Origin: an uncultured Pseudomonadota bacterium
Lineage (GTDB): Bacteria; Pseudomonadota; Gammaproteobacteria; CAJXQU01
DNA: 34,486 bases
NCBI GenBank assembly: GCA_913058255.1
Contig: CAJXQU010000021.1
Span: 1-34,486, forward strand
Direction: 5' to 3'
Shown: positions 1-34,486 of the stretch, in pieces
Layout of the letters: every line of letters begins with the position of its first letter
How positions within the stretch are numbered: position 1 is the stretch's first letter
Notes under the pieces: model-generated
The model's database searches: none
What the model saw: only the letters and a program-made list of their open reading frames with translations
Told to the model about the DNA's origin: nothing
Program-made: the position numbers and the translations under genes

Positions 1-161
1 AGAAAGCCGAAGGTAAATGTGGTGAAGGCAAGTGCGGCGAAAACATGAAGAAAGCCGAAGGTAAATGTGGTGAAGGCAAGTGCGGCGAAAACATGAAGAA
101 AGCTGAAGGTAAATGTGGTGAAGGCAAGTGTGGCGAAGGCAAGTGTGGCGAAAATAAATAA
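1..161 (+). CDS. HvfA-like EGKCG-repeat RiPP precursor (3' end only)
   Basis: This is the C-terminal end of a low-complexity, Cys-rich peptide; the 5' end lies outside the window and the frame opens at base 3. The visible 52 residues consist of a 16-residue unit (KAEGKCGEGKCGENMK) given twice, then a third longer version ending in ENK and TAA. Seven EGKCG motifs can be counted. In the HvfA/bufferin families EGKCG cysteines are modified by an MNIO (DUF692) enzyme with a partner protein, giving thioamide/oxazolone-type groups that bind copper in the periplasm. An MNIO enzyme and its partner lie just downstream (685-2305), which supports the call. A signal peptide would be expected but is not visible. 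The gene ends in its own terminator, so it can be expressed well above the enzyme genes. Family assignment is firm; metal and modification are inferred from family knowledge. Confidence 0.85.
   Translation, partial: KAEGKCGEGKCGENMKKAEGKCGEGKCGENMKKAEGKCGEGKCGEGKCGENK
3..146 (+). repeat. 48-bp in-frame tandem repeat inside the precursor gene
   Basis: Copies at 3-50 and 51-98 are identical at all 48 bases. The copy beginning at 99 differs first by silent changes (GCC to GCT, TGC to TGT) and then continues with an extra GAAGGCAAGTGTGGC unit. The identity at synonymous positions points to recent duplication. The true copy number upstream of the window is unknown. Confidence 0.9.
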
Positions 162-220
162 GCAGACAGAGAGAATGGGACTTTAGCTGAAGCTTGTTCC
201 AACATATGAAAGAAGAATAA

Positions 221-252
221 GGGGTATCCTCAAAAGGGATGCCCGTTTTTTT
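221..252 (+). terminator. Rho-independent terminator after the EGKCG precursor
   Basis: GGGTATCC and GGGATGCCC form a stem (one G-T pair) around a short TCAAAA loop and are followed directly by seven T residues. It lies 60 bases after the precursor stop codon and separates precursor transcription from hvfBC. Confidence 0.75.
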
Positions 253-439
253 ACCTCTCTTAAATATTTTATGTAATTATGAAGGAGAGTTCTTGTCGGA
301 AAAATATAGATGCTCTATCGCATGGTTGCTTCATTGAACATGAGTGGTTAAGTTGAGTTTTGAGGTGGGTTTTCTGATCTTCAAGGTGGTTGCTTATGGC
401 TCTAAGTTTAATAAAAAATACTGAAAGATTGGTATAACA

Positions 440-579
440 ATGCCTAACAAAGGTTCCCTGCAAGTAGTTGCAAGAATGTTTGGAGCAGCTTTTTCGCTAA
501 ATAATTTTGCAGAAGCTATATAGGCGTTGATGGAGACGAAGGCAAATGTGGTGAGAGTATTATAAAAAGTCGATGTTGA
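440..579 (+). pseudogene. Decayed second HvfA-like precursor
   Basis: An ATG at 440 opens a 27-codon reading frame with a signal-peptide-like start (MPNKGSLQVV, then GAAFSLNNFAEA), resembling HvfA leaders, and stops at TAG 521-523. In another frame, 529-579 encodes DGDEGKCGES and ends in TGA, so one intact EGKCG motif survives at 538-552. The leader and the motif are therefore separated by a stop and a frameshift. A further stretch around 622-690 reads GDDDMTKYADGKLGIAK in one frame and may be more of the same remnant, but that is weak. Best read as a dead paralogue of the precursor ending at 161, placed directly before its modification genes. Confidence 0.55.
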
Positions 580-684
580 AAGGTAACAGATAACGTCTTT
601 AAGAATTAGGTAACTTCAGTTACGGTGACGACGACATGACTAAATATGCAGATGGAAAGTTGGGCATAGCAAAGCATAAATCTA

Positions 685-1557
685 ATGATGAACGGTTCTT
701 TTATGGAAAATAGTCTATTTCAAGTACAAGGAGCGGGTCTAGGCCTTAGGCGAGCGTTATTGGATTCGCTGAAGGCTCATATTCCTGAACAAGTTGGTTT
801 TTTAGAAGTTGCTCCAGAGAACTGGATTGATGTGGGTGGGGCAATAGGACGAAAGTTTTCGGCTGTTGCTGAACAAGTTCCGATGACGGCCCATGGCTTG
901 TCTTTGAATATTGGTGGGCCAGCCCCTTTAGATGAACGTTTTTTATATAGGATAAAAAACTTTCTCGATCAATATGATATCCGTGTCTATAGCGATCATT
1001 TAACCTATTGCGCGGATGATGGTCATCTTTATGATTTAATGCCTATTCCTTTTACAGAAGAGGCTGTTCAACATGTCGTAAAACGAATTCATCAAGTTGA
1101 AGAGATCATTGAGCGACCTTTTGTTATTGAAAATGCATCTTACTACGCAGCACCTTCAAATGAACTATCAGAAATTGAGTTTATCAACGCTGTTTTACAA
1201 GAAGCAGACTGCCAGCTTTTGCTTGATATCAATAATATTTATGTCAATAGTATCAATCATCAATATGATTCAGAAGAATTTTTGAAAGCATTACCGAGTG
1301 AAAGAATTGCTTATGCACATATTGCCGGACATTATAATGAAGATATTGATCTGATTATTGATACCCATGGGGCCGATGTGATTGATCCTGTTTGGAAGTT
1401 ATTAGAAGTTGCTTATCAAGAGTTTGGTGTATTCCCAACCTTATTAGAGCGTGACTTTAATATTCCTCCGATGAGTGAACTCGTTGGCGAGGTTGATATG
1501 ATTCTTAATCTACAGCAAAAGTATTTAGGTCAAAAAAATGCCAGTCAACACGCCTGA
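685..1557 (+). CDS. hvfB: MNIO family (DUF692) RiPP-modifying enzyme HvfB/BufB
   Basis: MNIO enzymes are TIM-barrel, multinuclear non-haem iron oxygenases that modify precursor cysteines; MbnB of methanobactin is the founding example. Family motifs appear in order: GAGLGLRR (16-23), EVAPENW (41-47), AHGLSLNIGG (69-78), YSDHLTYC (102-109), VIENASYY (147-154), LLDINNIYVN (179-188), AHIAGH (211-216), DTHG (226-229) and LLERD (253-257). The His, Asp and Glu residues in these motifs are the expected iron ligands. Length (290 aa) is normal. ATG at 685 is used, but ATG at 703 would give the usual short N-terminus; neither has a good ribosome site. The gene overlaps hvfC by 20 bases, so the two are translationally coupled. 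Substrates are presumably the EGKCG peptide ending at 161 and, formerly, the broken copy at 440-579. Confidence 0.9.
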   Translation: MMNGSFMENSLFQVQGAGLGLRRALLDSLKAHIPEQVGFLEVAPENWIDVGGAIGRKFSAVAEQVPMTAHGLSLNIGGPAPLDERFLYRIKNFLDQYDIRVYSDHLTYCADDGHLYDLMPIPFTEEAVQHVVKRIHQVEEIIERPFVIENASYYAAPSNELSEIEFINAVLQEADCQLLLDINNIYVNSINHQYDSEEFLKALPSERIAYAHIAGHYNEDIDLIIDTHGADVIDPVWKLLEVAYQEFGVFPTLLERDFNIPPMSELVGEVDMILNLQQKYLGQKNASQHA

Positions 1558-2305
1558 GTTTATCCAAAAGCAATACGAATTCACTCGCCATTGTCGTGAT
1601 CCGGAGAATAATCCAGCGCCGGATAATATCGAAGATCGGCGAATGGGGGTTTACCGTGATCTGCTTTACAACAATATCGAAAGTTTTATGTCGAATAATT
1701 TCCCTGTTATTCGGGCGATCATGTCGGATGAACAATGGCACCAGTTGATCAGGGAATATTTTTCTAAACACAAAGCCAGCACACCTTTATTTCCAAAATT
1801 ACCTTCGGAATTGGTGCAGTTTTTAGAAAAAGAGTACCCGCTCGATGGTGAGTTCCCTTTCCTGGCAGAACTTGCTCACTATGAGTGGGTGGAGTCTGCT
1901 TTAGCGACAGATATTCGTGATATTAACCTTTCAGGACTGTCGCAGGAGGGAGATCTACTTACCGGAATTCCTGTGGTTAGTGAGTTAATCTGGCATTTGG
2001 CCTATGAGTATCCTGTCCATCAGATCAGTCCGGATTTCTTGCCGAAAGAAAAACCGAGCTCTCAAACTTATTTGGTAGTCTATCGAGATCGGCAAGATGA
2101 TGTTGGGTTTATGGAACTGAACCCAGTGACTGCTAGACTATTGGAATGTCTAATTAATAATGAAAAGGGCTTAACGGGCAAAGCGATCCTGCAGGCGATA
2201 GCTGAAGAATTACAACATCCTCAGCCTGAAGTTGTGATCAATGGTGGGTTAGAGATCTTGCAACAAATGCTGCAGCGCGATGTAGTTCTTGGCATTCGGC
2301 ATTGA
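1538..2305 (+). CDS. hvfC: DUF2063 family partner protein HvfC/BufC
   Basis: This 255-residue protein has the two-part layout of the HvfC/BufC family: an N-terminal DUF2063 helical domain (about 8-105, containing the YRDLLYNNIESFMSNNFP signature) and a C-terminal region with winged-helix character (about 135-250). Family members act as precursor-recognition partners of MNIO enzymes, delivering the leader peptide to HvfB, despite an old annotation as putative DNA-binding protein. The start codon lies inside hvfB, a typical arrangement in these operons. No key region seems to be missing. Function as HvfB partner is inferred from family and context. Confidence 0.87.
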   Translation: MPVNTPEFIQKQYEFTRHCRDPENNPAPDNIEDRRMGVYRDLLYNNIESFMSNNFPVIRAIMSDEQWHQLIREYFSKHKASTPLFPKLPSELVQFLEKEYPLDGEFPFLAELAHYEWVESALATDIRDINLSGLSQEGDLLTGIPVVSELIWHLAYEYPVHQISPDFLPKEKPSSQTYLVVYRDRQDDVGFMELNPVTARLLECLINNEKGLTGKAILQAIAEELQHPQPEVVINGGLEILQQMLQRDVVLGIRH

Positions 2306-2445: not shown

Positions 2446-2495
2446 ACAAAGTTTGTATGCTTGAATTATTTGTAGAAAAGGAAGCACGAAGAAAT

Positions 2496-3092
2496 ATGTT
2501 TGGAAGTGTGAGAAGGGGGATGTTTAGTTGGTTTTTGTTAGTATTGACGGTTAGTTTGACGTCAAACTTAGTTTATGCGAAGTCAAAGGAAAAAGTAAAC
2601 GAGCACCAGTTACAAATCGCCGGTTGGCTAGAGAACGTAGTATTGGAACCTTGGGGGCTCAAGTTACGGGCTAAACTCGATACGGGTGCTAAGACCTCAT
2701 CACTTCACGCAATTAATATCGAACGCTTTAAAAGAAATGGTAAAAGATGGGTTCGTTTTCAGACGGTTGATCCTGATGAAAAAAAACCACTTCCAGCGAT
2801 AGAGACTCCTCTCGTTCGTGATGTCAAAATTAAAAGACATAAAGAGAAAGCGCAATTGAGGCCGGTTGTTGAGATGACCTTTTGTCTAGATGGTCAGGTT
2901 TATCAAAGTGAGTTTAGTTTGATTGATCGTAGCCAGTTTAATTATCAAGTATTGCTTGGTCGGAGGATGTTGCAACAAGGCATCATTGTCGATCCAGCCT
3001 CAACGTACAGCTTAAAGACGACCCACAAAGGGTGTAAAAAATTATTAAACGCTCTGAACAAACAATCAGAAGAACAGTCTGCTGAAAAGTAG
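2496..3092 (+). CDS. Exported retropepsin-like protease (PF05618, RloA-type)
   Basis: The protein belongs to the family long labelled 'ATP-dependent zinc protease' (PF05618, once DUF785), now regarded as retropepsin-like aspartic peptidases. The active-site loop LDTGAKTSSLHA is clear, and the flap-end motif LLGRRMLQQG with the VDP that follows is typical. The open frame extends to ATG 2457, but ATG 2496 gives a proper signal peptide (basic MFGSVRRG start, hydrophobic segment, cleavage after LVYA), so I prefer it; both have only weak ribosome sites. The product should act in the periplasm. It is followed after 18 bases by a 7TM protein and then an ATP-grasp ligase, the conserved trio RloA/RloB/RloC, which suggests a shared job on a peptide or amino-acid ligation product at the envelope. 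The exact substrate is unknown. Confidence 0.85.
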   Translation: MFGSVRRGMFSWFLLVLTVSLTSNLVYAKSKEKVNEHQLQIAGWLENVVLEPWGLKLRAKLDTGAKTSSLHAINIERFKRNGKRWVRFQTVDPDEKKPLPAIETPLVRDVKIKRHKEKAQLRPVVEMTFCLDGQVYQSEFSLIDRSQFNYQVLLGRRMLQQGIIVDPASTYSLKTTHKGCKKLLNALNKQSEEQSAEK

Positions 3093-3110
3093 GCAAACGA
3101 GGAAACACTA

Positions 3111-4661
3111 TTGAGAAACCTTCATGTAAGACTTCTGTCACTTGCATTGATTTTATTTGCCTCAGGCTTAATCTTTTATAAGGTAACAAAGCTTGGGTTA
3201 CCTCTACTTCCTAGTGAAGAAATCGAGGTTTGGAGTGTTGAAGCACGTTTAGGATTTGATCCCAAAGATGTACCGATTAAGGCTCAGCTAACGTTACCAC
3301 GTTCGCCTGAAGGTTACGTTATTGCGGACGAAAATTACGTCTCAGGCAAGTATGGTTTAGCCGTTGAGGATAAAGAAAAAAATCGTATTGCAGAGTGGGC
3401 GGTGCGTAGAGCAAAAGGTGAGCAGGTTCTCTACTATCATTTGCAGTTAGCACGCGATAATAACGAAGATGTTATTGAGGAAATGATAGACAACTCTAAG
3501 AAAAGTAAAGAGAAGATTGTTTTTCCTAAAATACCTGAATACTCAGAGGGTAAGGCCACAGCCGTTAATGCCCTGTTAGAAGAAGTGCGTCAAAAATCAG
3601 CTGATATAAAGACATTTACCCGCGAATTATTGCTTCGCTTTAATTCTAAAACCCCGGATGAGAATGTTCAATTATTGCTGAGTGAGGTTAAGACAGATAA
3701 AGAGCGAGTAAATCTTATACGTGAAGTGTTGGCGGGTGCTCGAATTCCTTCGCGAACTATACACGTATTATTATTACGTGAGGGGATGCGTCATGGGAGC
3801 TTAACACCTTGGATACAGGTGCATAACGAGCAAGAATGGTTGTCATTTAACCCTGGAAATAGTGAACGTGTTATGCCTAAAAATTCCGTGATCTGGCAGA
3901 TGGGTGATAACCCTATTTTTAATGTTGATGGTGGTAAGAATGTAAAGCTCGATTTTTCGATCAGCCGTCATACTCAAGAGCCGCTGCGCTTAGCTGAACA
4001 GCGAGCCCGAAAAATGGGCTCTCGAGCCATGGAGTTCTCTTTATTTAGTTTGCCAGTTGAAACACAGAATGTTTATCGAATACTTTTAATGGTACCGTTG
4101 GGGGCATTTTTGATCGTTCTATTGAGGAACATCATAGGTATTAAAACATTCGGTACGTTTATGCCGATCTTAATCGCCTTGGCTTTTCGTGAGACTGATT
4201 TAGTCTGGGGGATTACACTATTTACCTTGATCGTTGCGCTTGGTTTAGCCATACGTTTTTATCTTGAATATTTACAGCTTTTACTTGTACCTAGGCTCGC
4301 CTCAGTGTTGATCATCGTTATCATCTTAATGACGGTTGTAACGATATTGAGTTATAAATTAGGCTTTGAGCACGGCTTGTCAGTGGCCTTGTTTCCAATG
4401 GTGATCTTGGCGATGACCGTTGAGCGGATGTCTTTGGTCTGGGAAGAACATGGGGCGGGCGAAGCCTTACAACAAGGTGTTGGGAGCTTAGCTGTTGCGG
4501 CACTTGGCTATCTAGTCATGAGTAATGATATTTTGAACCATTTGATTTTTGTATTTCCTGAAGTACTCCTATTAATTCTTGCATTGACCTTACTTTTAGG
4601 TCGATATACGGGTTATCGTCTGACGGAATTGTGGCGTTTCCGCGCTACATTTGGTGACTAG
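3111..4661 (+). CDS. Transglutaminase-fold / 7TM inner membrane protein (RloB-type)
   Basis: The start is TTG at 3111 behind a GAGGA ribosome site; no ATG exists near the N-terminus. Layout: one N-terminal membrane segment (about 8-28), a large periplasmic region with a transglutaminase-like domain (about 150-290, annotated in databases as inactive transglutaminase), and seven hydrophobic helices at the C-terminus (about 325-510). I cannot see a convincing Cys-His-Asp triad, since the domain contains no Cys, so it is probably a binding module rather than an enzyme. Homologues in the same three-gene set have been linked to osmotic stress tolerance; I recall this association from annotation and cannot verify it. 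It is two bases from the ATP-grasp gene, so the two are surely co-translated. Confidence 0.83.
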   Translation: MRNLHVRLLSLALILFASGLIFYKVTKLGLPLLPSEEIEVWSVEARLGFDPKDVPIKAQLTLPRSPEGYVIADENYVSGKYGLAVEDKEKNRIAEWAVRRAKGEQVLYYHLQLARDNNEDVIEEMIDNSKKSKEKIVFPKIPEYSEGKATAVNALLEEVRQKSADIKTFTRELLLRFNSKTPDENVQLLLSEVKTDKERVNLIREVLAGARIPSRTIHVLLLREGMRHGSLTPWIQVHNEQEWLSFNPGNSERVMPKNSVIWQMGDNPIFNVDGGKNVKLDFSISRHTQEPLRLAEQRARKMGSRAMEFSLFSLPVETQNVYRILLMVPLGAFLIVLLRNIIGIKTFGTFMPILIALAFRETDLVWGITLFTLIVALGLAIRFYLEYLQLLLVPRLASVLIIVIILMTVVTILSYKLGFEHGLSVALFPMVILAMTVERMSLVWEEHGAGEALQQGVGSLAVAALGYLVMSNDILNHLIFVFPEVLLLILALTLLLGRYTGYRLTELWRFRATFGD

Positions 4662-4663
4662 AA

Positions 4664-5611
4664 ATGTCATTAATGAATCGTCTCCTGCCTTGGCGCGTTT
4701 TAAAAGCTAAGGGAATAATGGGAATGAATAAGCGTAATGGTGATTATATTGCAGCGTACAACAAACGCTCTCAATACCCATTAGTCGATGACAAGGTGAA
4801 AACAAAACATCTGGCAGAAGCTGCAGGTGTCGCGGTGCCTAAGCTCTATGCTGTCGTTGAGATAGAGAAACAGATCCGTGGGATTGCGAAAAAACTCGAG
4901 CCCTATGATGACTTTGTGGTGAAACCTTCACATGGTAGTGGTGGAGAAGGTATTCTCGTGATCATTGGTCGTGCGCTAGGCGGATATCGTAAAGGCAACG
5001 GTGAGATGATGACGGAGTCAGAGCTTGATCATCATATTTCAAATGTCTTGAGCGGAATGTATAGTCTTGGCGGCTTGCCGGATACCGCTTTGATTGAACA
5101 GCGAGTAGAGTTTGATCCGATCTTCTCTGCTGTTAGCTATCAAGGAGTACCTGATGTTCGTACGATTGTCTTCCGTGGAGTTCCAGTCATGGCGATGATC
5201 CGCCTTCCAACCAGAATGTCAGATGGAAAAGCCAATCTTCATCAAGGTGCAATCGGTGTTGGAATTGATCTAAAAACAGGTAAAACTTTTTCAGGTGTAT
5301 GGCACGAAAAAATTGTAGAACAGCACCCAGATACAGGTGCTTCGATTGTTGATCTGCAGATCCCTCAATGGGATAAAATTCTTGAACTGACGGCACATTG
5401 CTATGATTTAGCAGGGCTTGGTTATACTGGCGTTGATATCGTTCTCGATCGAGATCATGGACCGTTGATGCTAGAGATGAATGCCCGGCCAGGCTTGAGT
5501 ATTCAGATTGCGAATCAATGTGGTTTATTGAAACGTTTAGAAAAAATTGAAGCGTTAGATGATATTCCTGAAAGTATAGAAGATCGCGTGAAGCTAGCTA
5601 AAACTTTATAG
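4664..5611 (+). CDS. RimK-type ATP-grasp ligase (alpha-L-glutamate ligase-like, RloC-type)
   Basis: A cytoplasmic ATP-grasp protein of the family annotated 'alpha-L-glutamate ligase-like'. The ATP-binding glycine loop (VVKPSHGSGGEGILVI, about 87-102) and the Mg-binding C-terminal motif (LMLEMNARPGLSIQIAN, about 268-284, with the expected E and N) are intact, so it should be active. ATP-grasp ligases of this type join an amino acid to a carboxylate through an acyl phosphate. The amine and acid substrates cannot be read from the sequence. The ATG is two bases after the preceding stop. With its upstream partners it forms a ligase, membrane protein and exported peptidase set. Confidence 0.86.
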   Translation: MSLMNRLLPWRVLKAKGIMGMNKRNGDYIAAYNKRSQYPLVDDKVKTKHLAEAAGVAVPKLYAVVEIEKQIRGIAKKLEPYDDFVVKPSHGSGGEGILVIIGRALGGYRKGNGEMMTESELDHHISNVLSGMYSLGGLPDTALIEQRVEFDPIFSAVSYQGVPDVRTIVFRGVPVMAMIRLPTRMSDGKANLHQGAIGVGIDLKTGKTFSGVWHEKIVEQHPDTGASIVDLQIPQWDKILELTAHCYDLAGLGYTGVDIVLDRDHGPLMLEMNARPGLSIQIANQCGLLKRLEKIEALDDIPESIEDRVKLAKTL

Positions 5612-5648: not shown

Positions 5649-6389
5649 TTAGAAAAGGTTGACGTAAGTCGAATTTTTTCCGTCTTCAGCAAACTCGTGG
5701 ATGAAAGCGACTTGATCGAGTGCTTTCATTTCGTTCATTACCCAACGTTGTCGTTGTTCAAAAAGAGCAGAAGGCGTCGTTGAATTGTAAGGCCTTGGGG
5801 CTAACAAAATGGTCGCTAACAATGCGGACTCATTCTCGCTGAGTTTACTCGCAGGCTTGTAAAAGAACTTTTGGCTTGCCGCTTCAATGCCATACACACC
5901 AGGTGAAAACTCTGCAATGTTCAAATAAATTTCTAAAATTCTTTGTTTATCAAGACTGCTTTCAAGTAGAAAAGTTAACCAAGATTCTAATCCCCCCCAC
6001 GCAATTTGGTCGCTCCATAAAAAGAGGTTTTTTGCAGTTTGTTGGCTGATGGCACTGGTCTCGTGGATACTCGAATCTAGAGGTTGAGTTCTTAGTACAT
6101 GCTTTAATTGATTCACATCAAAGCCAGGGCGAGTTGAGAAGTGCTGATCTTTGGCGGCGATGATGGCTAGAGGTGTACTGACGGACATTTCGTCCCAACT
6201 TTTCCACTCATATTGAACAGAGCTTTGCGGGTTAGAGGCTTTCTGACTCAGCATAAATGATGTAAGCGGTGGATTGAGCCAGTTCATGCTATGGATAAGC
6301 GTAACTGGTGTGATAAAGAAGAGAAAAACAAGAAGAGAAGCTAGGTTGATTATCCAAGCTTGTACGTTTGAAACGAGACCACTTTTCAT
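5649..6389 (-). CDS. mtgA: MtgA-like glycosyltransferase 51 homologue, catalytic residues lost
   Basis: The overall fold and order follow monofunctional peptidoglycan glycosyltransferase MtgA: an N-terminal membrane anchor (about 10-35), then GT51 motifs including ISQQTAKNLFLW, RILEIYLNIAEF and ESALLATILLAPRPYN. However the first motif, normally EDxxFxxHxG, reads KDQHFSTRPG: the catalytic Glu is Lys (residue 80) and the conserved His is Arg (87). The GGST/GAST before ISQQ is ETSA, and the RK of the RKxxE motif is GG, although its Glu is kept. The enzyme is therefore probably unable to polymerise lipid II and may be a scaffold or a gene in decay. ATG 6389 is used; TTG 6404 upstream is in frame but has no ribosome site. 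It converges on the ATP-grasp gene, 37 bases away. Confidence 0.8.
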   Translation of the reverse strand: MKSGLVSNVQAWIINLASLLVFLFFITPVTLIHSMNWLNPPLTSFMLSQKASNPQSSVQYEWKSWDEMSVSTPLAIIAAKDQHFSTRPGFDVNQLKHVLRTQPLDSSIHETSAISQQTAKNLFLWSDQIAWGGLESWLTFLLESSLDKQRILEIYLNIAEFSPGVYGIEAASQKFFYKPASKLSENESALLATILLAPRPYNSTTPSALFEQRQRWVMNEMKALDQVAFIHEFAEDGKNSTYVNLF

Positions 6390-6802
6390 GAATAAGTTTT
6401 CCAATAAGGATTAATTATTATTGAACTGTAAGCTTACATCATGCGTTATTTCAGTGCGAGTTTTTTTTCTAATAAAATCAATAGCTTTTTATTGCTTTAG
6501 AACATTGTTTTCTACCGATGTCAATAGACTGTATTAGTGAATAGATCTATCATAGACATGTTTTTTTAACTGAAGGTTAAATGTGAGAAATTGACCTTGG
6601 TCATTGTTTAAAAACTAGGTGAAAAATAAACGCACTTGATTATTTTTTCGAGTAAGTGGGGGCTATGTCTGTGTTTAAAAAATAGGATAAAGGGGAGGTT
6701 ACTTTGCCGCTATGACACATTTTTAAACAAAATAACTCCTAAAGGACAAGGGGAAAGGCATGGTCATTGCTTTACATTTAAAACTAAAGAGAGAGACTGC
6801 AG
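6390..6802. other. Intergenic control region before the aldehyde dehydrogenase operon
   Basis: About 400 AT-rich bases with no supported gene, serving both divergent units. Two small inverted repeats are visible: TTTAAC/GTTAAA at 6565-6581 (5-base loop) and TGACC/GGTCA at 6592-6603 (2-base spacer). Either could be an operator, but no regulator can be named. Confidence 0.4.
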
Positions 6803-8242
6803 ATGACAAACCATTATCCTTTGATGATTCCTAGGGCGAAGAGCACTGACGGAAAGCTAGATGTTTTTGCTCCATTTGATCGTTCCCTTATCGCTACGGC
6901 AGACACCGCTGATGCAGCTGCCATCGAGACGGCCTTGTCTACAGCAGACTCGCTATATCGAAATAAGCAAGCATGGCTTTCTGTTCCAGAGCGTATCGAG
7001 ATCCTTGAGCGAGCTGCTGAGATTATGCAGCAACGATTTGATGAGCTTGCGATTGAAGCCGCTCGTGAAGGTGGTAAACCACTCAATGATTCTAAAGTCG
7101 AAGTAGCTCGTGCTATTGATGGCATGAAGCTTTGTATTGAATCTTTACGCACCGAAACTGGTGATGTTATTCCTATGGGTATCAATGCCGCGTCGATGGG
7201 ACGCATTGCGTTTACGCGCGCTGAACCCATTGGAGTTGTCGTCGCAGTGAGTGCTTTTAATCATCCTTTGAACTTGATTGTCCATCAAGTTGCACCAGCA
7301 ATCGCAACAGGCTGTCCTGTCATCGTAAAACCTTCTGGTGAAACGCCATTGTCATGTTTTAGGTTCGTAGAAATCATGCGTGAAGCTGGTTTGCCTGAAG
7401 AGTGGTGTCAGGCAGCAACGATCAAGGACCGTAATGTCTCAACCAGTCTTGTCACTGATAGCCGTGTTGGTTTTTTCTCCTTTATAGGCTCTGCACAAGT
7501 CGGCTGGATGTTGCACTCAAAACTAGCGCCAGGTGCACGTGCTGCGCTTGAGCATGGGGGAGTTGCACCTGTTATCGTTGAGCAAGATGCTGATCTTGAA
7601 GACTGTATTCCACTGCTAGCCAAAGGTGGGTTTTATCATGCAGGCCAGGTCTGTGTATCCGTCCAACGGATCTACGCACATGAATCAATTGCAGAAACGG
7701 TTGCAGAGCGTATTGTTACTGAAGCAGGAAAAATGTCTGTCGGCGATCCTACTTTGGCCGAAACAGATATTGGGCCACTGATTAATCCGGGTGAAGTCGA
7801 GCGTATTCATGAGTGGGTAACCGAAGCGGTTGAAGCGGGTGCAAAACTACTCTGTGGTGGTAAGAAGTTGTCAGATACTTGTTATGCACCAACGGTGCTG
7901 GTTAACCCACCAGATGATGTGCTTGTTTCTACGGGAGAAGTATTTGGCCCAGTGGTTTGTGTTTATTCTTATTCAGACACAGAAGAAGCCATTGCACGCG
8001 CGAATGCTTTACCCGTATCTTTCCAAGCGGCAGTGTTTACAAAGAATATAGATAAAGCACTTGAAGCCTATGCAGGGTTAAATGCTTCTGCTGTGATGGT
8101 TAATGATCATACTGCTTTTCGAGTCGATTGGATGCCATTCGCAGGTTTGAAAACGTCAGGACTTGGTATCGGCGGTATTCCTCATACGATGCACGACATG
8201 CAAATTCAAAAAATGATGGTTATCCGTTCACCACAAATCTAG
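6803..8242 (+). CDS. NAD(P)-dependent aldehyde dehydrogenase family protein
   Basis: A full-length (479 aa) ALDH-superfamily enzyme that should oxidise an aldehyde to the acid with NAD(P)+. Catalytic residues are in place: Asn153 (SAFNHPLN), Glu250 (LEHGGVAP, where most families have LELGG) and the nucleophile Cys284 (HAGQVCVSVQRI). The cofactor region with IVKPSGETPLS and FIGSAQVG is also normal. It resembles the lactaldehyde/phosphonoacetaldehyde/non-phosphorylating GAPDH branch more than betaine-aldehyde enzymes, but the substrate cannot be fixed. A purine-rich GAGAGAGA precedes the start. The next gene begins 14 bases after the stop, so this gene and the glutamate-synthase-like protein are one operon. 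Confidence 0.85.
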   Translation: MTNHYPLMIPRAKSTDGKLDVFAPFDRSLIATADTADAAAIETALSTADSLYRNKQAWLSVPERIEILERAAEIMQQRFDELAIEAAREGGKPLNDSKVEVARAIDGMKLCIESLRTETGDVIPMGINAASMGRIAFTRAEPIGVVVAVSAFNHPLNLIVHQVAPAIATGCPVIVKPSGETPLSCFRFVEIMREAGLPEEWCQAATIKDRNVSTSLVTDSRVGFFSFIGSAQVGWMLHSKLAPGARAALEHGGVAPVIVEQDADLEDCIPLLAKGGFYHAGQVCVSVQRIYAHESIAETVAERIVTEAGKMSVGDPTLAETDIGPLINPGEVERIHEWVTEAVEAGAKLLCGGKKLSDTCYAPTVLVNPPDDVLVSTGEVFGPVVCVYSYSDTEEAIARANALPVSFQAAVFTKNIDKALEAYAGLNASAVMVNDHTAFRVDWMPFAGLKTSGLGIGGIPHTMHDMQIQKMMVIRSPQI

Positions 8243-8256
8243 AGAGAGAAAATGTT

Positions 8257-9753
8257 ATGGAACTAGTGAATACTGTGGTTCAAATTGCAGTTGGATCGAT
8301 TTTGTTTTTTATTTTATTTGCTATCGTAACCGTTTTGGTTATGTACATAGTCGATGTGACACAGACAAAGCAAACGATTAGACGCAACTATCCCGTTGTT
8401 GGTCGATTTCGATATTTTTTCGAACACATGGGGCAATTTTTTCGCCAGTATTTTTTTACTATGGATCGCGAAGAGATGCCTTTTAATAGAGCACAGCGAT
8501 CATGGTGCTATCAGGCAGCTAAAAATATGGATACCACGGTTGCCTTCGGTTCTTCTAAAAATTTAAAAGTTCCAGGCACGGTCATTTTTTCTAACTGTCC
8601 TTATCCAACCTTAAAAGAGGATGCTGTAGAACCTGATGTGGTTACCATTGGGGAAAGTTGCAAGATCCCATTTAGAACGGCATCACTTTTTAATATATCT
8701 GGAATGAGTTATGGCGCTCTATCTAAGCCTGCTGTTTTGGCTCTTTCTAAAGGTGCAGCTATGGCGGGATGTTGGATGAATACTGGTGAAGGTGGTTTGT
8801 ACGACTATCATCTTTCTGGAAATGCCGATCTCGTTTTTCAGATCGGAACAGCAAAAAATGGAGTGCGTAATTCAGAAGGAAAGTTATGCGATGAAAAATT
8901 GCGTGAGGTTGCAGCACATGAGCATGTGAGAATGTTCGAGATTAAGCTCAGCCAAGGTGCAAAGCCAGGGAAAGGAGGTATTGTTCCAGCTGCAAAAATC
9001 ACTGAAGAAATTGCTAAGGTTAGAGGAATTAAAGTGGGGCAAGATGCCATTAGTCCAAACCGTCATCCTGATATACGTAACGATGATGAATTGCTCGATA
9101 TGATTGCTCGGATCAAGGAAGTAACAGGAAAACCTGTCGGCTTTAAAGCGGTCATTGGTGGCGCTGCATGGTTAGATTCACTTTTTACAAAAATTAGACA
9201 TCGAGGGATTGAATCTGCTCCGGATTTTATTACGGTCGATGGTGCTGAAGGTGGCACAGGAGCTGCACCATTACCATTGATTGATGATATGGGAATTCCG
9301 CTTGGGGAGTCATTACCTATGTTGGTAGATAAGCTAAATACCTATGGCCTAAGAGGACATATAAAGGTGGTTGCATCAGGAAAGTTGATCACCCCTGGAG
9401 ATGTTGCTTGGGCTCTTTGTAGCGGTGCTGATTTTATAACCTCTGCACGTGGATTTATGTTTTCATTAGGTTGTATCCAGGCGCTACAATGTAATAAAAA
9501 CACCTGCCCAACCGGTATCACTACACATAATAAAAAGTTACAACGCGGATTAGTTCCAGAAGATAAGGCTGTTCGAGTCACTAATTATGTTAATAATATG
9601 GTACATGAGGTTGGGGTCATCGCTCATGCCTGTGGGGTGAAAACGCCTCGACAGCTGAAAAGACATCATGCTCGGGTTGTTATGCCTGATGGATTTTCAA
9701 AACCATTAAATGAGCTGAACCCAGAAGTAGTTCCACTTAAAAGACCTGTCTAA
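8257..9753 (+). CDS. Membrane-anchored FMN/Fe-S glutamate-synthase-like protein
   Basis: The protein matches the FMN-binding, (beta/alpha)8 synthase domain of glutamate synthase (PF01645) as a stand-alone enzyme. An N-terminal hydrophobic helix (about 8-32) anchors it in the membrane, with the catalytic part in the cytoplasm. FMN and substrate elements include the ISGMSYGALS region (about 149-158), the lysine-rich IKLSQGAKPGKGG loop and FITVDGAEGGTGAAP. Cys406, Cys412 and Cys417 (C-x5-C-x4-C, then PTGI) match the 3Fe-4S cluster of GltB. There is no glutaminase or ammonia channel domain, so it cannot be ordinary GOGAT; related proteins include N-methylglutamate synthase subunits of methylotrophs. 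The frame stays open upstream into the ALDH gene, but ATG 8257 with a GAGAGAGA site is the likely start. The reaction is unknown. Confidence 0.82.
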   Translation: MELVNTVVQIAVGSILFFILFAIVTVLVMYIVDVTQTKQTIRRNYPVVGRFRYFFEHMGQFFRQYFFTMDREEMPFNRAQRSWCYQAAKNMDTTVAFGSSKNLKVPGTVIFSNCPYPTLKEDAVEPDVVTIGESCKIPFRTASLFNISGMSYGALSKPAVLALSKGAAMAGCWMNTGEGGLYDYHLSGNADLVFQIGTAKNGVRNSEGKLCDEKLREVAAHEHVRMFEIKLSQGAKPGKGGIVPAAKITEEIAKVRGIKVGQDAISPNRHPDIRNDDELLDMIARIKEVTGKPVGFKAVIGGAAWLDSLFTKIRHRGIESAPDFITVDGAEGGTGAAPLPLIDDMGIPLGESLPMLVDKLNTYGLRGHIKVVASGKLITPGDVAWALCSGADFITSARGFMFSLGCIQALQCNKNTCPTGITTHNKKLQRGLVPEDKAVRVTNYVNNMVHEVGVIAHACGVKTPRQLKRHHARVVMPDGFSKPLNELNPEVVPLKRPV

Positions 9754-10377: not shown

Positions 10378-10881
10378 ATGAATGCGATCATGTCACTGGG
10401 TTGTTACGTTATACGATTACTAAACTGGTTTGGAGAATGGCTGCCGCAGTTAGCACTAAGAATCATTCTAGCTTGGGAGTTTTGGGAAGCGGGTGTGATG
10501 AAATACAAAGGAGAAAACTGGTTCTCTGCAGATATGTTTCCTTTCCCATTTAGTCTATTGTCGGCAGATATGAATTGGAATATGGCTATGTGGGCAGAGC
10601 TTATTGGTGCCGTTTGTATTCTATTTGGATTGTTTACTCGCTTCGCCACTATTTCACTGATTGTCGTTACGATAGTTGCTATCGCGAGTGTCCATTGGTC
10701 GAGTGAGTGGACAACTTTTTCAGAATTACTTCAAGGTTACTCAATTTCAAATAAAGGTTTCGGTAATTATAAACTGCCACTCTTGTATCTTGTAATGTTT
10801 CTACCTTTGTTGTTTAGAGGAGCAGGTAAGTTCAGTCTTGATCACTTACTGATGTCTCGTTTTGGATATCATAAAGGGTGA
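10378..10881 (+). CDS. DoxX family membrane protein, HvfX-like
   Basis: A 167-residue integral membrane protein with four hydrophobic segments and the DoxX-family features LALRIILAWEFWEAGVMKYKG near the first helix and WAELIGAVCILFGLFTRFA in the middle. A long loop with W-x-S-E-W and a GFGNYKLPLLYLVMFLPLLFRGAGKFSLDHLL end are typical of the DoxX proteins (HvfX/BufD-like) found in MNIO operons. A GGAGAATAATA ribosome site precedes the ATG. In this genome it stands alone, 8 kb from hvfBC, with 600-base noncoding flanks on both sides. A role in the same metal-peptide pathway is plausible from family likeness but not shown; DoxX proteins also occur in other redox settings. Confidence 0.7.
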   Translation: MNAIMSLGCYVIRLLNWFGEWLPQLALRIILAWEFWEAGVMKYKGENWFSADMFPFPFSLLSADMNWNMAMWAELIGAVCILFGLFTRFATISLIVVTIVAIASVHWSSEWTTFSELLQGYSISNKGFGNYKLPLLYLVMFLPLLFRGAGKFSLDHLLMSRFGYHKG

Positions 10882-11485: not shown

Positions 11486-14400
11486 ATGAGAAAGTTTGAA
11501 ATGATGGATGACTTTGGTACTTACTCTAAACCAAAATCTATAAGTAATACTCTCATAAAGTGGTTTTTAATTTTAGGATTATCTCCTCTAATTTTAGTGT
11601 CATTGTTCAGTTATCATCAGGTGAGTCGAAGTTTAGTACAGGTTGCTGAAGAAGAGCTTCAAGAGTCTTCAGAGTTAAGCTCTCGTTTTATTGAGAGCTG
11701 GTTTGAATACCGCTTAATGGATCTCAGGATACAATCGGAGTCATTAGTAAACGCGCATTTACTTGATCAGTTAACAAAAGGGTTCAAACAGAGTAATCAA
11801 CCTTTATCGGAATATGTTAAAAGTCACGATTGGGCAACACGCGTTGATGACTCTGAAATTAATCTTGCCACCATGGTTCGGGCATATGACTATATTTATG
11901 ATCTATTGCTTATTGATAATGAAGGAAATATTCTCTACACGCTGGCTAAAGAATCCGAGCTTGGAACTAACCTCAATAATGGCCTTTACTCCCAAACTAA
12001 ATTTTCTGAGGCTTTCAACAAAAGTAATAATACTGAAAAGATATTGTTTTCAGGTTTAGAACGGTACTCTCCCTCAAACAATATTATTGCAGGGTTTACC
12101 ACAGCACCTATTTTGAATGAGAGTGGAGAAAAAATTGGCGTATTTGCGAGCCAATTACGTTTAGATAGAATTTTCAGTTTATTAATGTCTAAAACTTCGT
12201 TAGATGCTTCATTGAGGCATTACCTTGTAGATAAAAATGGGCTTTTACTTTCACCATTGAGTCAAAAGGGAGAGGATGAGGTGCTGAGAAGGATCGTCGA
12301 TACTGAACAGTTTAATCCCGAAATACAAGGCAAAAAAAATAACAACGAACGAACGATTGTTGAATATGATGGCCCAAGTGGTAAACGGGTTTTTGGTATT
12401 AGTGAAGCTGTAAGATTGAAAGGGGTTGAGTGGAACTTAATCACAGAAATCGATCGTGATGCAATCATGTCTCTTCCTGATTCTATGAAAAGGACGATGA
12501 TATTTTTATCTCTGACGTTATCATTGCTTCTAATTTGTTTAGCCATTTATTTAGCAAAGCGAATCACTCAGCCGATTAAAGAATTAGAAGAAATTAGTAT
12601 GAAAGTTGCTGCTGGTGATATTAATCAGCATGTAGAGGTTCGAGAAAATGATGAAATAGGTCGATTATCGGTTTCATTTAATCATATGTTAAAGATGCGA
12701 GAAATGCATGAGAAATCTCTTGGCCAACGCAGTCAAGAGTCACAAAAAGCTTTGTCTGCGTTAGCGGATCAGAAGTATGCTTTAGATCAACATGCGATCG
12801 TTGCAATTACAGATAGAGGAGGAACGATTACCTTTATTAATGAGAAATTTTCGGAGCTTAGTGGCTATTCCAAAGAGGAATTAATCGGCCAGAATCATAG
12901 AATTTTAAACTCTGGTTTTCATAGCTCAGAATTTTTTACAGATATGTATGTCGCTATTTCATCTGGAAAGGTATGGCAGGCTGAAATTTGTAATAAGACT
13001 AAAGAAGGTGATCTCTATTGGGTCGATACAACCATTGTTCCGTTTATGGGAAATGATGGTCCTGAAAGTTACATTGCGATTAGAACAGATGTTACAGAGC
13101 GAAGAAAAACTGAAGATGATTTGATTGAAGCTAGAATTGAAGCAGAAATGGCAGTCATCGCTAAAGGCGAGTTCCTTGCTAGCATGAGCCATGAGATTAG
13201 AACACCGATGAATGGTGTTTTAGGAATGCTGGGGCTGTTGCTTAATACTAATCTTAATAATGAACAAAAACACCGAGCAAAAATTGCGCAATCTAGCGCG
13301 GAATCGTTGTTGACATTGATTAATGATATTTTGGATTTATCAAAAGTTGAAGCTGGTAAATTAGAGCTGGAGATGATCGACTTCAAGCTCCATGACATGT
13401 TGGGTGGTTTTGCCGAGGCGATGGCTTTGCAAGCACAGAACAAAGATGTTGAGCTCGTGTTAGATTTGACAGCTGTTGATCAAACAATGGTAAAAGGAGA
13501 CCCTAGTCGACTACGTCAAATCCTGACGAACCTAGTAGGCAATGCTATTAAGTTTACAGATGATGGTGAGATTGTTATTCGTGCTGAACTGCGGGAAGCC
13601 AGTGATTCGGATTGGCGGTTGATTGTGTCGGTGACGGACACGGGTATCGGGATCCCAGAAGATAAATTAGAGCTTTTATTTGAATCATTTAGCCAAGTCG
13701 ATGCCTCGACGACGCGTGAGTATGGTGGCACAGGATTAGGGCTCTCTATAGTTAAAAAATTAAGCGCACTGATGGGTGGTGGTATCACCGTTATTAGCCA
13801 AGAAGGTGTTGGTAGCTGTTTTGAATTGAGTGTAGTGTTTAAGAAAAGTGTGGGCTCACATCAAGTGGTTCCTAATGTCGATATGAAATCCCTGAATTTG
13901 CTAGTCGTTGATGATAACAAGACGAACCGTGATGTACTTCGGGGACAGTTTGAATCGTGGGGAGCGAGTGTTATTGAAGCTGAAAGTGGCCAACAAGCAT
14001 TAGAAATCTGTGATGAGCGGGCACAGCAATCGGATATTGATTTTTTTGATATTGCATTACTCGATATGAAGATGCCCGTTATGAACGGTGCTGAATTAGG
14101 ACAGGCACTTAAAAGTGATCAGCGTTACAGTGGTATGAAGTTAGTCATGATGACCTCTATTGGTTGTCAAGGTGATGCGCAGCGTTATGCTGATATTGGG
14201 TTTAGTGCTTACTTTCCTAAGCCAGCAACGACGTCTGATTTATTCGATGCGCTAGCTGTAATCGTTGAAGGTGGGGAAGCGTTAGAAAATGCTCAACCGT
14301 TAGTGACCGGGGATTATTTAAAATCATTGGGAAGAGATGATTTTATTGATGAGCATCGATTTGAATCAACGATTGGTCGCACCGAGTGGCCAAAGAATAG

Positions 14401-15439
14401 TCTCATCTTACTTGTTGAAGATAATCAGATTAATCAAATGGTCGCGACAGGACTTTTAAAAGCCTTTGGGCTTGAAGTCACAGTTGCTAATAATGGAGTT
14501 GAAGCATTAGAGATACTGCGTGATGACAATCGTCACTATTGTCTTGTGTTGATGGATTGTGAAATGCCACAAATGGATGGTTATGAGGCATCTCAAAGAA
14601 TCAGAGCTGCCGGTAGTGGCATTCTATATGAAGCGATCCCGATCGTTGCTATGACGGCGAATGTTATGCAGGGTAATCGTGAAAAATGCATGGATGCTGG
14701 GATGAATGATTATCTGGCAAAACCCATAAATCCAGAGCTTTTATTGGATAAATTGAAAGAGTGGATTTTGAAAAGGCCGAGTCATGTTCAAGAAGCTACA
14801 AATAATAATGTGACTGAAGACAATAAGCTGGCGGTATGGGATGAAAAAACCGCATTGAAGCGAGTCATGGGAGATAGTGTTCTAATAAGCACTGTGCTCG
14901 ATGTTTTCATTAAAGAAAGCCCAGAACGGATTAGATGTTTATTGGCAGCGTTAGAGAGTAATGATTGTGAGCTAGTACGCCAGCTTGCACATAGTCTGAA
15001 AGGTGTTGCCGGTAATCTTGCTGGTGTCTGCTTGGAACACAAGGCTATGCAGATGGAAGCATTTGCTAAAGAGGCAGATATTGAAAAACTTCAGAGACTA
15101 ATGCCTGAGTTACAGCACGCTCATGAAGAACTCTTAAGCTGTTTTAAACAGCACCAAGCGAAATCAATAACTGATGACATAGAGCTAGATCTTGCTTCAA
15201 AATGGAATGTAGAAGAGTTAATCCACCTACTTCGAAATTTAGAACTAAAATTAAATAATAGTGAGTATGTTGAGCCTAAAGAGCTGGAGTCATTAAAGCA
15301 ATTTAGCTTGAGCTTGCAGACAGAAAATCTCATAGGACAATTGATTAGCCAAATTAACCAATTTGATAATAAGAGTGCAATGGAGACTCTCCGAGCAATA
15401 GAAGCCACTGAGGGGGTTGAGCTTCAAATAGAATTATAG
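11486..15439 (+). CDS. Hybrid sensor histidine kinase (Cache-HAMP-PAS-HisKA-HATPase-REC-REC-HPt)
   Basis: A 1317-residue inner-membrane kinase. Domains in order: TM1 (about 22-44), periplasmic Cache-like sensor (about 45-330), TM2 (about 338-358), HAMP (358-410), PAS (about 430-545), HisKA with SMSHEIRTPMNG (phospho-His569), HATPase_c with NLVGNAIKFTDDG, DTGIGIPEDKL and GGTGLGLSI (about 680-790), REC1 with VVDDNKTN and acceptor Asp860, REC2 with VEDNQINQ and acceptor Asp1024, and HPt with LAHSLKGVAGNLAG (His1169). A helical extension of about 85 residues follows HPt. All phosphotransfer residues are present. The start is not certain; a second Met is at residue 6. Only nine bases separate it from the diguanylate cyclase gene, the likely output. 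The signal is unknown; a Cache domain suggests a small extracellular ligand. Confidence 0.9.
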   Translation: MRKFEMMDDFGTYSKPKSISNTLIKWFLILGLSPLILVSLFSYHQVSRSLVQVAEEELQESSELSSRFIESWFEYRLMDLRIQSESLVNAHLLDQLTKGFKQSNQPLSEYVKSHDWATRVDDSEINLATMVRAYDYIYDLLLIDNEGNILYTLAKESELGTNLNNGLYSQTKFSEAFNKSNNTEKILFSGLERYSPSNNIIAGFTTAPILNESGEKIGVFASQLRLDRIFSLLMSKTSLDASLRHYLVDKNGLLLSPLSQKGEDEVLRRIVDTEQFNPEIQGKKNNNERTIVEYDGPSGKRVFGISEAVRLKGVEWNLITEIDRDAIMSLPDSMKRTMIFLSLTLSLLLICLAIYLAKRITQPIKELEEISMKVAAGDINQHVEVRENDEIGRLSVSFNHMLKMREMHEKSLGQRSQESQKALSALADQKYALDQHAIVAITDRGGTITFINEKFSELSGYSKEELIGQNHRILNSGFHSSEFFTDMYVAISSGKVWQAEICNKTKEGDLYWVDTTIVPFMGNDGPESYIAIRTDVTERRKTEDDLIEARIEAEMAVIAKGEFLASMSHEIRTPMNGVLGMLGLLLNTNLNNEQKHRAKIAQSSAESLLTLINDILDLSKVEAGKLELEMIDFKLHDMLGGFAEAMALQAQNKDVELVLDLTAVDQTMVKGDPSRLRQILTNLVGNAIKFTDDGEIVIRAELREASDSDWRLIVSVTDTGIGIPEDKLELLFESFSQVDASTTREYGGTGLGLSIVKKLSALMGGGITVISQEGVGSCFELSVVFKKSVGSHQVVPNVDMKSLNLLVVDDNKTNRDVLRGQFESWGASVIEAESGQQALEICDERAQQSDIDFFDIALLDMKMPVMNGAELGQALKSDQRYSGMKLVMMTSIGCQGDAQRYADIGFSAYFPKPATTSDLFDALAVIVEGGEALENAQPLVTGDYLKSLGRDDFIDEHRFESTIGRTEWPKNSLILLVEDNQINQMVATGLLKAFGLEVTVANNGVEALEILRDDNRHYCLVLMDCEMPQMDGYEASQRIRAAGSGILYEAIPIVAMTANVMQGNREKCMDAGMNDYLAKPINPELLLDKLKEWILKRPSHVQEATNNNVTEDNKLAVWDEKTALKRVMGDSVLISTVLDVFIKESPERIRCLLAALESNDCELVRQLAHSLKGVAGNLAGVCLEHKAMQMEAFAKEADIEKLQRLMPELQHAHEELLSCFKQHQAKSITDDIELDLASKWNVEELIHLLRNLELKLNNSEYVEPKELESLKQFSLSLQTENLIGQLISQINQFDNKSAMETLRAIEATEGVELQIEL

Positions 15440-15448
15440 AGAATAATA

Positions 15449-16330
15449 ATGATAAATAATTCAATGATACTGATCGTCGATGATGAGCCTGCGAATATTC
15501 AAGTGCTTGCAGCATGTTTAAAACATCGATATAGAATTAAAGTGGCCACATCAGGCCAGAAATGTTTTGAAGTGTTGGCAGAGCAGGAGAAGCCAGACCT
15601 GATCCTATTGGATATTGAGATGCCAGGAATGAATGGCTATGAGGTGTGTGAGAAGCTGAAAAAAGGCCCACATGAGTCGATACCAGTCATTTTTGTTACA
15701 GCAAGAGATGCTATTGATGATGAGGAGCGTGGTTTAAATATAGGTGCAGTAGATTACATAACCAAGCCTGTTAGTCCTGCCATCGTTGATGCAAGAATTA
15801 ATACGCACATGCTGATAAAGCATCAACGTGATCTGTTAGAAAAAATGGCACTTCATGATCAGTTAACCGGACTTTATAATCGTTATTATTTACTAGAAGA
15901 AGCCAATCATAAAGTTGCTCTTTCAAGGCGTCATGAATATGAATTAACTTTGTTAATGATAGACATTGATCACTTTAAAGATATCAATGACCAACATGGT
16001 CATCCAACAGGAGATGCTGTTTTAAAAAAAGTTTCAAGCTTATTGATCGAGCTTAATCGCGAAGGAGACATTACGGCAAGGATTGGTGGTGAAGAGTTTG
16101 TCGTCGTGTTAGATCATTGCAATGCTGCGAACGCTGAAATTAAAGCGAATAGCATTCGTGAAAAGGTAGAAGCACTGAAGCCTGATGGAATTAATGTTAC
16201 GGTGAGTATTGGTGTTGCTCAATTAAACGACGATGATAGTGATGGTGGATTTACTGGAATGCTAAAAAGAGCAGATGTCGCTGTTTATCAGGCGAAGGAG
16301 TTGGGACGTAACCGGGTGGTTCTTTCGTAA
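15449..16330 (+). CDS. Response regulator with REC and GGDEF domains (diguanylate cyclase)
   Basis: The protein makes c-di-GMP from two GTP. An N-terminal REC domain (about 5-120) has the acidic pair VDDE, acceptor Asp55 (LLDIEMPGMNG), a TAR motif and a YITKP lysine. The C-terminal GGDEF domain (about 135-293) has the active-site variant GGEEF at 213-217, and LTGLYNRYYL and DIDHFKDINDQHGH upstream. The inhibitory I-site RxxD is present (R204, D207), implying product feedback. The layout is that of PleD/WspR-like regulators with a single REC. It directly follows the hybrid kinase, whose HPt is the likely phosphodonor. Both genes probably share one transcript. Confidence 0.9.
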   Translation: MINNSMILIVDDEPANIQVLAACLKHRYRIKVATSGQKCFEVLAEQEKPDLILLDIEMPGMNGYEVCEKLKKGPHESIPVIFVTARDAIDDEERGLNIGAVDYITKPVSPAIVDARINTHMLIKHQRDLLEKMALHDQLTGLYNRYYLLEEANHKVALSRRHEYELTLLMIDIDHFKDINDQHGHPTGDAVLKKVSSLLIELNREGDITARIGGEEFVVVLDHCNAANAEIKANSIREKVEALKPDGINVTVSIGVAQLNDDDSDGGFTGMLKRADVAVYQAKELGRNRVVLS

Positions 16331-33943: not shown

Positions 33944-34486
33944 ATGAGAAAATCATCGTTAAATCGATGGCTTCTAGCAGGTGCCGCACTAACCATGTCA
34001 GCATCAGCAATGGCTAACGAAGAGTTACTTAAGTTACAAGAAGATCCAAACTACTGGGTTATGCCCAGTGGTAACTATGCTGGGTGGCGTTATTCTGAGT
34101 TGAAGCAAATCAACAATCAGAATGCTCATCAAATACAGGCTGCATGGACATTTTCAACCGGTGTCCTGCGTGGTCATGAAGGTGGGCCTTTAGTCTTACC
34201 TCCAAGATCCACGGGGCTAGATGGAGATACTCTGTATATTCATGCGGCTTTTCCAAATAATGTTTTTGCAATTGATCTCGATACATTAGAGATTATTTGG
34301 GAATACGTGCCTATCCAAGATTATAACGAAACCGTCCCAGTTATGTGCTGTGACACAGTTAACCGTGGTCTAGCTTATGGTGATGGCAAAATATTCCTGC
34401 AGCAGGCTGACACTAATCTAGTGGCAATTAATGCTAAAACAGGAGAGAAAGTGTGGTCTGTTAAAAATGGTGATCCTAAAAAAGGT
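33944..34486 (+). CDS. xoxF: PQQ-dependent methanol dehydrogenase, XoxF type (5' part)
   Basis: The first 181 residues are visible; the gene runs off the right edge. A signal peptide (about 1-24, cleaved after SAMA) sends it to the periplasm. The mature start ([18 protein letters not shown]) and blocks such as [25 protein letters not shown] and [13 protein letters not shown] match PQQ quinoprotein alcohol dehydrogenases. The adjacent Cys135-Cys136 pair forms the disulfide ring near PQQ. Sequence style favours XoxF (lanthanide-dependent) over MxaF, but the diagnostic extra Asp near the metal lies outside the window. [11 protein letters not shown] segment after GGPLVL looks longer than in common XoxF proteins. 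It oxidises methanol, passing electrons to a cytochrome c. Confidence 0.87.

Follow-up and report, generated by a model that had tools for sequence, protein, structure and literature searches.

The window, a stretch of 34,486 nucleotides from an uncultured bacterium of the Pseudomonadota, very probably carries an Hvf-type (oxazolin/captophorin) metallophore locus that descends from an ancestor with two precursor genes, in which the second precursor gene (hvfA2) has decayed, hvfX has become remote through an insertion, and the hvfX gene has later come to be one of a short clade. The locus is of a known kind with a variant layout. The window corresponds to contig C21 of a 2.78 Mb assembly of 33 contigs that is about 96% complete (G000), and base 1 is the end of that contig. 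We compared it with two congeneric genomes, referred to here as the sister species (G001 and G002); searches at family and order level returned the same three genomes only (the window's own genome, G001 and G002). Gene identities were established using Pfam and NCBIfam profile models with their curated cut-offs, and layouts were compared across 82 HvfB loci, which were chosen by HvfB similarity and are not a random sample. The features of the locus are as follows.

3..161, + strand: hvfA1, C-terminal 52 codons with seven EGKCG motifs, 5' part cut by the contig end (NF050137, 75 bits, cut-off 19.5)
222..251, + strand: intrinsic terminator of hvfA1, a 9-pair stem followed by a T-run (hairpins at the matching place in G001 and G002)
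440..662, + strand: hvfA2 pseudogene with leader remnant (440-493), EGKCG core (523-567) and tail (603-662) (shuffle tests, intact sister copies, alignment)
685..1557, + strand: hvfB, MNIO enzyme, start at 685 or 703 (NF003818, 429 bits, cut-off 360)
1538..2305, + strand: hvfC, DUF2063/RRE partner protein (NF050145, 302 bits, cut-off 142)
2457..5611, + strand: rloA-rloB-rloC-like genes for a retropepsin-like protein, an inactive transglutaminase membrane protein and an ATP-grasp ligase-like protein (family matches)
5649..6404, - strand: mtgA, monofunctional transglycosylase (TIGR02070, 200 bits)
6803..8242, + strand: aldh, aldehyde dehydrogenase, 11 bases before glu (PF00171; adjacency also in G001 and G002)
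8254..9753, + strand: glu, stand-alone glutamate-synthase-like FMN domain protein with a C-x5-C-x4-C motif (PF01645, 287 bits)
10378..10881, + strand: hvfX, DoxX family, short clade (NF050144, 141 bits, cut-off 80; tree)

The products of hvfB and hvfC were called intact in the initial annotation, and both are indeed full length and well above the cut-offs of their models (429 bits for NF003818 and 302 bits for NF050145). A distant DNA search with hvfB in phages gave no match. One locus in the comparison set, L093, comes from a record whose title is Klebsiella pneumoniae MAG; its HvfB sits on a long branch and clusters with the HvfB proteins of uncultured environmental Gammaproteobacteria, and the species name of that record looks doubtful. 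The far end of the window (33944-34486) holds the start of a PQQ-dependent methanol/ethanol-type dehydrogenase that is cut by the contig end and suggests alcohol oxidation or methylotrophy.

A surviving precursor and the remnant of a second one

The visible part of hvfA1 (3-161) encodes the last 52 residues of the precursor, with seven EGKCG motifs, and passes the HvfA model NF050137. It is followed by a terminator-like hairpin (222-244; nine pairs, folding z = -3.5) and a T-run, and hairpins occur at the equivalent place after hvfA1 in the sister species (z = -4.1 and -4.0), so that all three genomes have one. This agrees with the initial annotation, which had described an EGKCG-repeat precursor with a terminator of its own and had proposed that the precursor can be made in excess of its enzymes. 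The conserved terminator would let precursor transcripts exceed enzyme transcripts, and it predicts more precursor than enzyme transcript; fall-through beyond it could put hvfA1 and hvfBC on one transcript. No promoter could be assigned to hvfBC, promoter-like sites being as frequent in shuffled sequences, and no copper-responsive site for hvfBC was assignable in the sequence.

The 5' end of the window's hvfA1 is off the contig, and a search of the two ends of each remaining contig did not recover the missing part. In G002, where the copy of hvfA1 has a signal-like leader, the gene lies beside lysS; in the window's genome lysS is intact on contig C4, the gene after it is of the methyl-accepting type, and nothing beside it resembles hvfA more than shuffled sequences do. 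Since all three congeneric assemblies break within the hvfA1 repeats, the truncation most likely reflects a limit of assembly rather than biology. Repeats of the EGKCG type break short-read assemblies, and such precursors are thus easily truncated or missed in metagenome-derived genomes.

The comparison with related genomes that the initial annotation had proposed identified a second intact precursor gene (hvfA2) directly before hvfB in both G001 and G002. Three segments of the window match these intact copies: 440-493 matches the leader (2 of 500 shuffles were as good), 523-567 the EGKCG core and 603-662 the tail (0 of 500 shuffles as good in either case). The segments are colinear with the intact copies, but each lies in a frame of its own, and stops occur at about 521 and 577. 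A single EGKCG is left, as the initial annotation had noted for its decayed second precursor, and the final segment with two cysteines (KDPAVCGTFSAAKCSV) is absent from the remnant. Several separate lesions of this sort argue against a single sequencing error, and on sequence grounds the remnant is a true pseudogene derived from a second precursor gene. The lone EGKCG and the leader match, which by itself was reached by 2 of 500 shuffles, might raise the suspicion of intergenic DNA that never held a precursor and resembles one by chance, but the three segments follow the expected order in the syntenic position, core and tail beat 500 of 500 shuffles, and the intact precursor at exactly that position in both congeners practically refutes this explanation.

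The intact second precursors (L020 8225-8674 and L021 445-786) share a conserved two-cysteine tail, KDPAVCGTFSAAKCSV.HLK, which matches no Pfam family and is found in no other precursor of the comparison set.

Which of the two genes was lost can be read from their distances to hvfB. Elsewhere the end of hvfA and the GxGLGLR motif of HvfB are separated by a median of 52 nt (51 precursor-hvfB pairs); the corresponding distance is 60 and 65 nt for hvfA2 in G001 and G002, and 569-804 nt for hvfA1. Given these distances and the terminator after hvfA1, the window's species has lost the canonical, operon-coupled precursor and retained the one that ends in its own terminator. The comparison set offers hardly any tandem hvfA genes: among 79 loci there is one doubtful case (L096). 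The earlier proposal that a two-precursor ancestor was reduced to one is supported, because both sister species keep two intact precursors. A metallophore locus that loses its enzyme-coupled precursor and keeps the uncoupled one offers a natural test of precursor-enzyme stoichiometry.

The remote HvfX and the block beside hvfC

As the initial annotation had stated, the HvfX-like DoxX protein is encoded about 8 kb from hvfC (10378-10881) and outside the operon; it scores 141 bits with NF050144 (cut-off 80), and searches of the assembly with the HvfX model and with the protein itself turned up no other HvfX. Presence of HvfX in the hvf operon is a frequent, not obligatory trait, so its absence from the operon here does not exclude the window from the Hvf type. 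Of the 37 loci that extend about 9 kb to either side, 18 have HvfX within 350 bases and 3 within 2.6 kb, and the remaining 16 have none in that range. The expectation that the genes A, B, C and X usually share an operon therefore holds for only about half of the loci. Nor is the remote HvfX a peculiarity of the window: G002 shares the layout, its HvfX lying about 6.5 kb beyond hvfC, and glu and hvfX are still neighbours.

Four relatives in the comparison set (L040, L064, L076 and L081) have the order prfB-lysS-hvfA-hvfB-hvfC-glu-hvfX-antiporter. Both ends of this string occur in G002, prfB-lysS-hvfA1 on one contig and glu-hvfX-antiporter on a second, and there rloABC and aldh follow hvfC ahead of glu. 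The order rloABC-mtgA-aldh-glu is seen in the window and in G001, and mtgA is missing from the G002 block. Across the 82 loci, rloABC was found at an hvf locus in the window's genus only. Because the relatives show hvfC-glu-hvfX directly and G002 has the same two ends plus the block, rloABC-(mtgA)-aldh appears to have been inserted between hvfC and the old glu-hvfX pair before these species diverged, which would account for the remote hvfX. No HvfX was found in the G001 assembly, possibly since its contig ends inside glu. On this account an old insertion, and not decay, would explain why the genes look scattered.

In the window's genome the hvf locus is no longer in the lysS neighbourhood, and the gene after hvfX encodes a hybrid histidine kinase, not an antiporter. 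This large kinase (11486-16330), which adjoins hvfX, comprises Cache, HAMP, PAS, HisKA, HATPase, two receiver and Hpt domains; after it comes a response-regulator protein whose C-terminal half resembles a diguanylate cyclase.

A tree of 52 HvfX proteins separates a short clade (10 rows, 100/100 support), which holds the window's protein, from a long clade (100/100 support), which holds that of G002. The glu genes that adjoin the short (window) and long (G002) hvfX are close orthologues (82% identical). The gap between glu and hvfX is 625 bases in the window and 118 in G002, and no remnant of a long-clade HvfX above shuffles was found in the 625 bases. The short hvfX beside glu may be explained by replacement by a distant homologue or by differential loss of alternate copies, and the data fit either. 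It is quite improbable that the window's short HvfX is a second, independent copy and that the ancestral long hvfX still resides elsewhere in the genome. Short and long HvfX do form separate, fully supported clades and the assembly is only about 96% complete, but searches of the genome with the HvfX model and with the protein itself recovered one copy only and the 625-base gap holds no trace of a long one.

The glutamate-synthase-like neighbour of hvfX

The glu product (499 residues) matches the PF01645 region only, and among solved structures large chains of glutamate synthase come nearest to it. We rejected its identity as a complete glutamate synthase large subunit (GltB) with an amidotransferase domain, since only the PF01645 region is present. 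Every glu copy that reaches the relevant region has the C-x5-C-x4-C motif, which in glutamate synthase binds a [3Fe-4S] cluster. A paralogue of glu in the same genome (L139 9748-11298, on G000 contig C4) has CDGSH iron-sulfur domains before its glutamate-synthase domain.

We detected glu in 16 of the 82 HvfB loci, and in nearly all of them it adjoins hvfX or hvfC and is read in the same direction. Explaining where it occurs takes about 10 changes on the HvfB tree, at least six of them forced by well-supported branches, and because of this the pairing of glu with hvf genes appears to have been gained or lost repeatedly. The nearest plasmid-borne kin of glu are 62-65% identical and mostly have no hvf genes alongside; the copy on a Thiothrix plasmid has a DUF692 and DNA-binding-domain pair about 3 kb away.

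Two readings of glu have to be weighed, and the stronger of them, which we hold at slightly less than an even chance, is that glu is unrelated to the peptide, belongs to a metabolic module with an aldehyde dehydrogenase and an acetolactate-synthase-like enzyme, and stands beside hvf by chance. A role in metabolism only has to be taken seriously because the kin on Leisingera plasmids (62-64% identical, without hvf genes) sit with such genes: an acetolactate-synthase-like gene in both records and an aldehyde dehydrogenase in one of the two. An acetolactate-synthase-like gene is also next to glu in L069, L101 and L104, and aldh adjoins glu across the window's genus. On the other hand, most hvf loci with glu lack these enzymes and place it, in the same orientation, immediately between hvfC and hvfX or next to them, and the roughly 10 changes on the HvfB tree imply a pairing that has arisen or been lost repeatedly.

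The other reading, which we consider tentative and rather unlikely, is that glu and HvfX might form an undescribed redox module of hvf clusters that supplies electrons for the iron cofactor, keeps the cysteines reduced while the thiooxazoles form, or acts on copper at the membrane. In the passages of PMC13419390 that bear on this, the activity of HvfBC in vitro depends on added reductant and the natural source of reductant is not named; a neighbour with flavin and iron-sulfur features would be an attractive candidate donor because of this need for reductant. Glutamate synthase is unmentioned in the main text of the MNIO survey and the captophorin paper (PMC13097082), to which this comparison extends. 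HvfX was still termed uncharacterized in a 2026 preprint. If the redox reading is true, this recurrent neighbour could be the missing source of reductant or a partner of HvfX.

Predicted function and comparison with known systems

In characterised relatives, HvfBC convert EGKCG cysteines to copper-binding 5-thiooxazoles, to which the products of the HvfA type have been reassigned, and the product is thought to be periplasmic (PMC13097082 and PMC13419390). In the window, HvfB and HvfC would most likely convert the EGKCG cysteines of HvfA1 to copper-binding 5-thiooxazoles before export, and the modified HvfA1 may serve as a periplasmic copper buffer. The old and the new assignment of the HvfA product are alike in mass, both being four-electron oxidations of Cys, so that a mass shift alone cannot separate the old assignment from the 5-thiooxazole; by the criteria of PMC13097082 the latter is identified by a mass lower by some 4 Da for each modified Cys together with an absorbance near 305 nm and alkylation by iodoacetamide.

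The ancestor of the genus would have had hvfA1 with its own terminator and hvfA2 directly before hvfB-hvfC. The rloABC-(mtgA)-aldh block would have entered before the species diverged, and the hvfX beside glu would have become one of the short clade later, by replacement or differential loss. With hvfA2 decayed in the window's species, hvfA1 is, as far as the DNA tells, the only precursor remaining in the locus, and the enzymes would have to act on HvfA1, whose transcript would be largely separated from that of hvfBC by the terminator. One might instead see the whole hvf system as decaying, with hvfA2 gone, hvfA1 perhaps broken past the contig edge, and hvfB and hvfC as passengers: one precursor is a pseudogene, a distant homologue has taken the place of hvfX, and the locus no longer lies in its ancestral position near lysS. 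We regard this as improbable, as HvfB retains all 90 near-invariant columns in an alignment of 82 homologues, HvfB, HvfC and HvfX are full length and above their curated cut-offs, and the visible hvfA1 keeps seven EGKCG motifs and its terminator. The reading we prefer is that of an Hvf-type locus whose enzymes would now depend on HvfA1.

Bufferins (BufA1/BufA2 with BufB and BufC) involve the same enzyme superfamily and probably have the same role as copper buffers. In contrast to them, the window's precursor is of the EGKCG type, and its HvfB reaches 263 bits on the BufB model (NF050167, cut-off 310) versus 429 on the HvfB model (cut-off 360), so we rejected the identification as a bufferin (BufABC) locus; the hvfA1 fragment matched none of the NCBIfam bufferin models. 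A separate bufferin locus is present in the same genome (L008 1154-3104, on G000 contig C1 at about 596.6-598.6 kb), with BufA2, BufB and a BufC-like protein that are over or near the cut-offs of their NCBIfam models.

Fontiphorin (fonABC) and other captophorins (PMC13097082) have EGKCG repeats that an MNIO modifies together with a PME1/DUF2063 partner. The window's layout differs from theirs by the terminator and pseudogene before hvfBC and by the remote hvfX, and its product is a predicted one. The hvfABCX operon of nontypeable Haemophilus influenzae (oxazolin, now 5-thiooxazole), as described in PMC13419390 and PMC13097082, shares the EGKCG-repeat precursor, HvfB, HvfC and HvfX with the window, where each of the four matches or exceeds the NCBIfam model made for this system, the locus is known from its genes and the modification is predicted. 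Unlike the Haemophilus influenzae system, the window has its surviving precursor set off from hvfBC by a terminator and a pseudogene, and its hvfX, of the short clade, lies 8 kb away behind rloABC-mtgA-aldh-glu.
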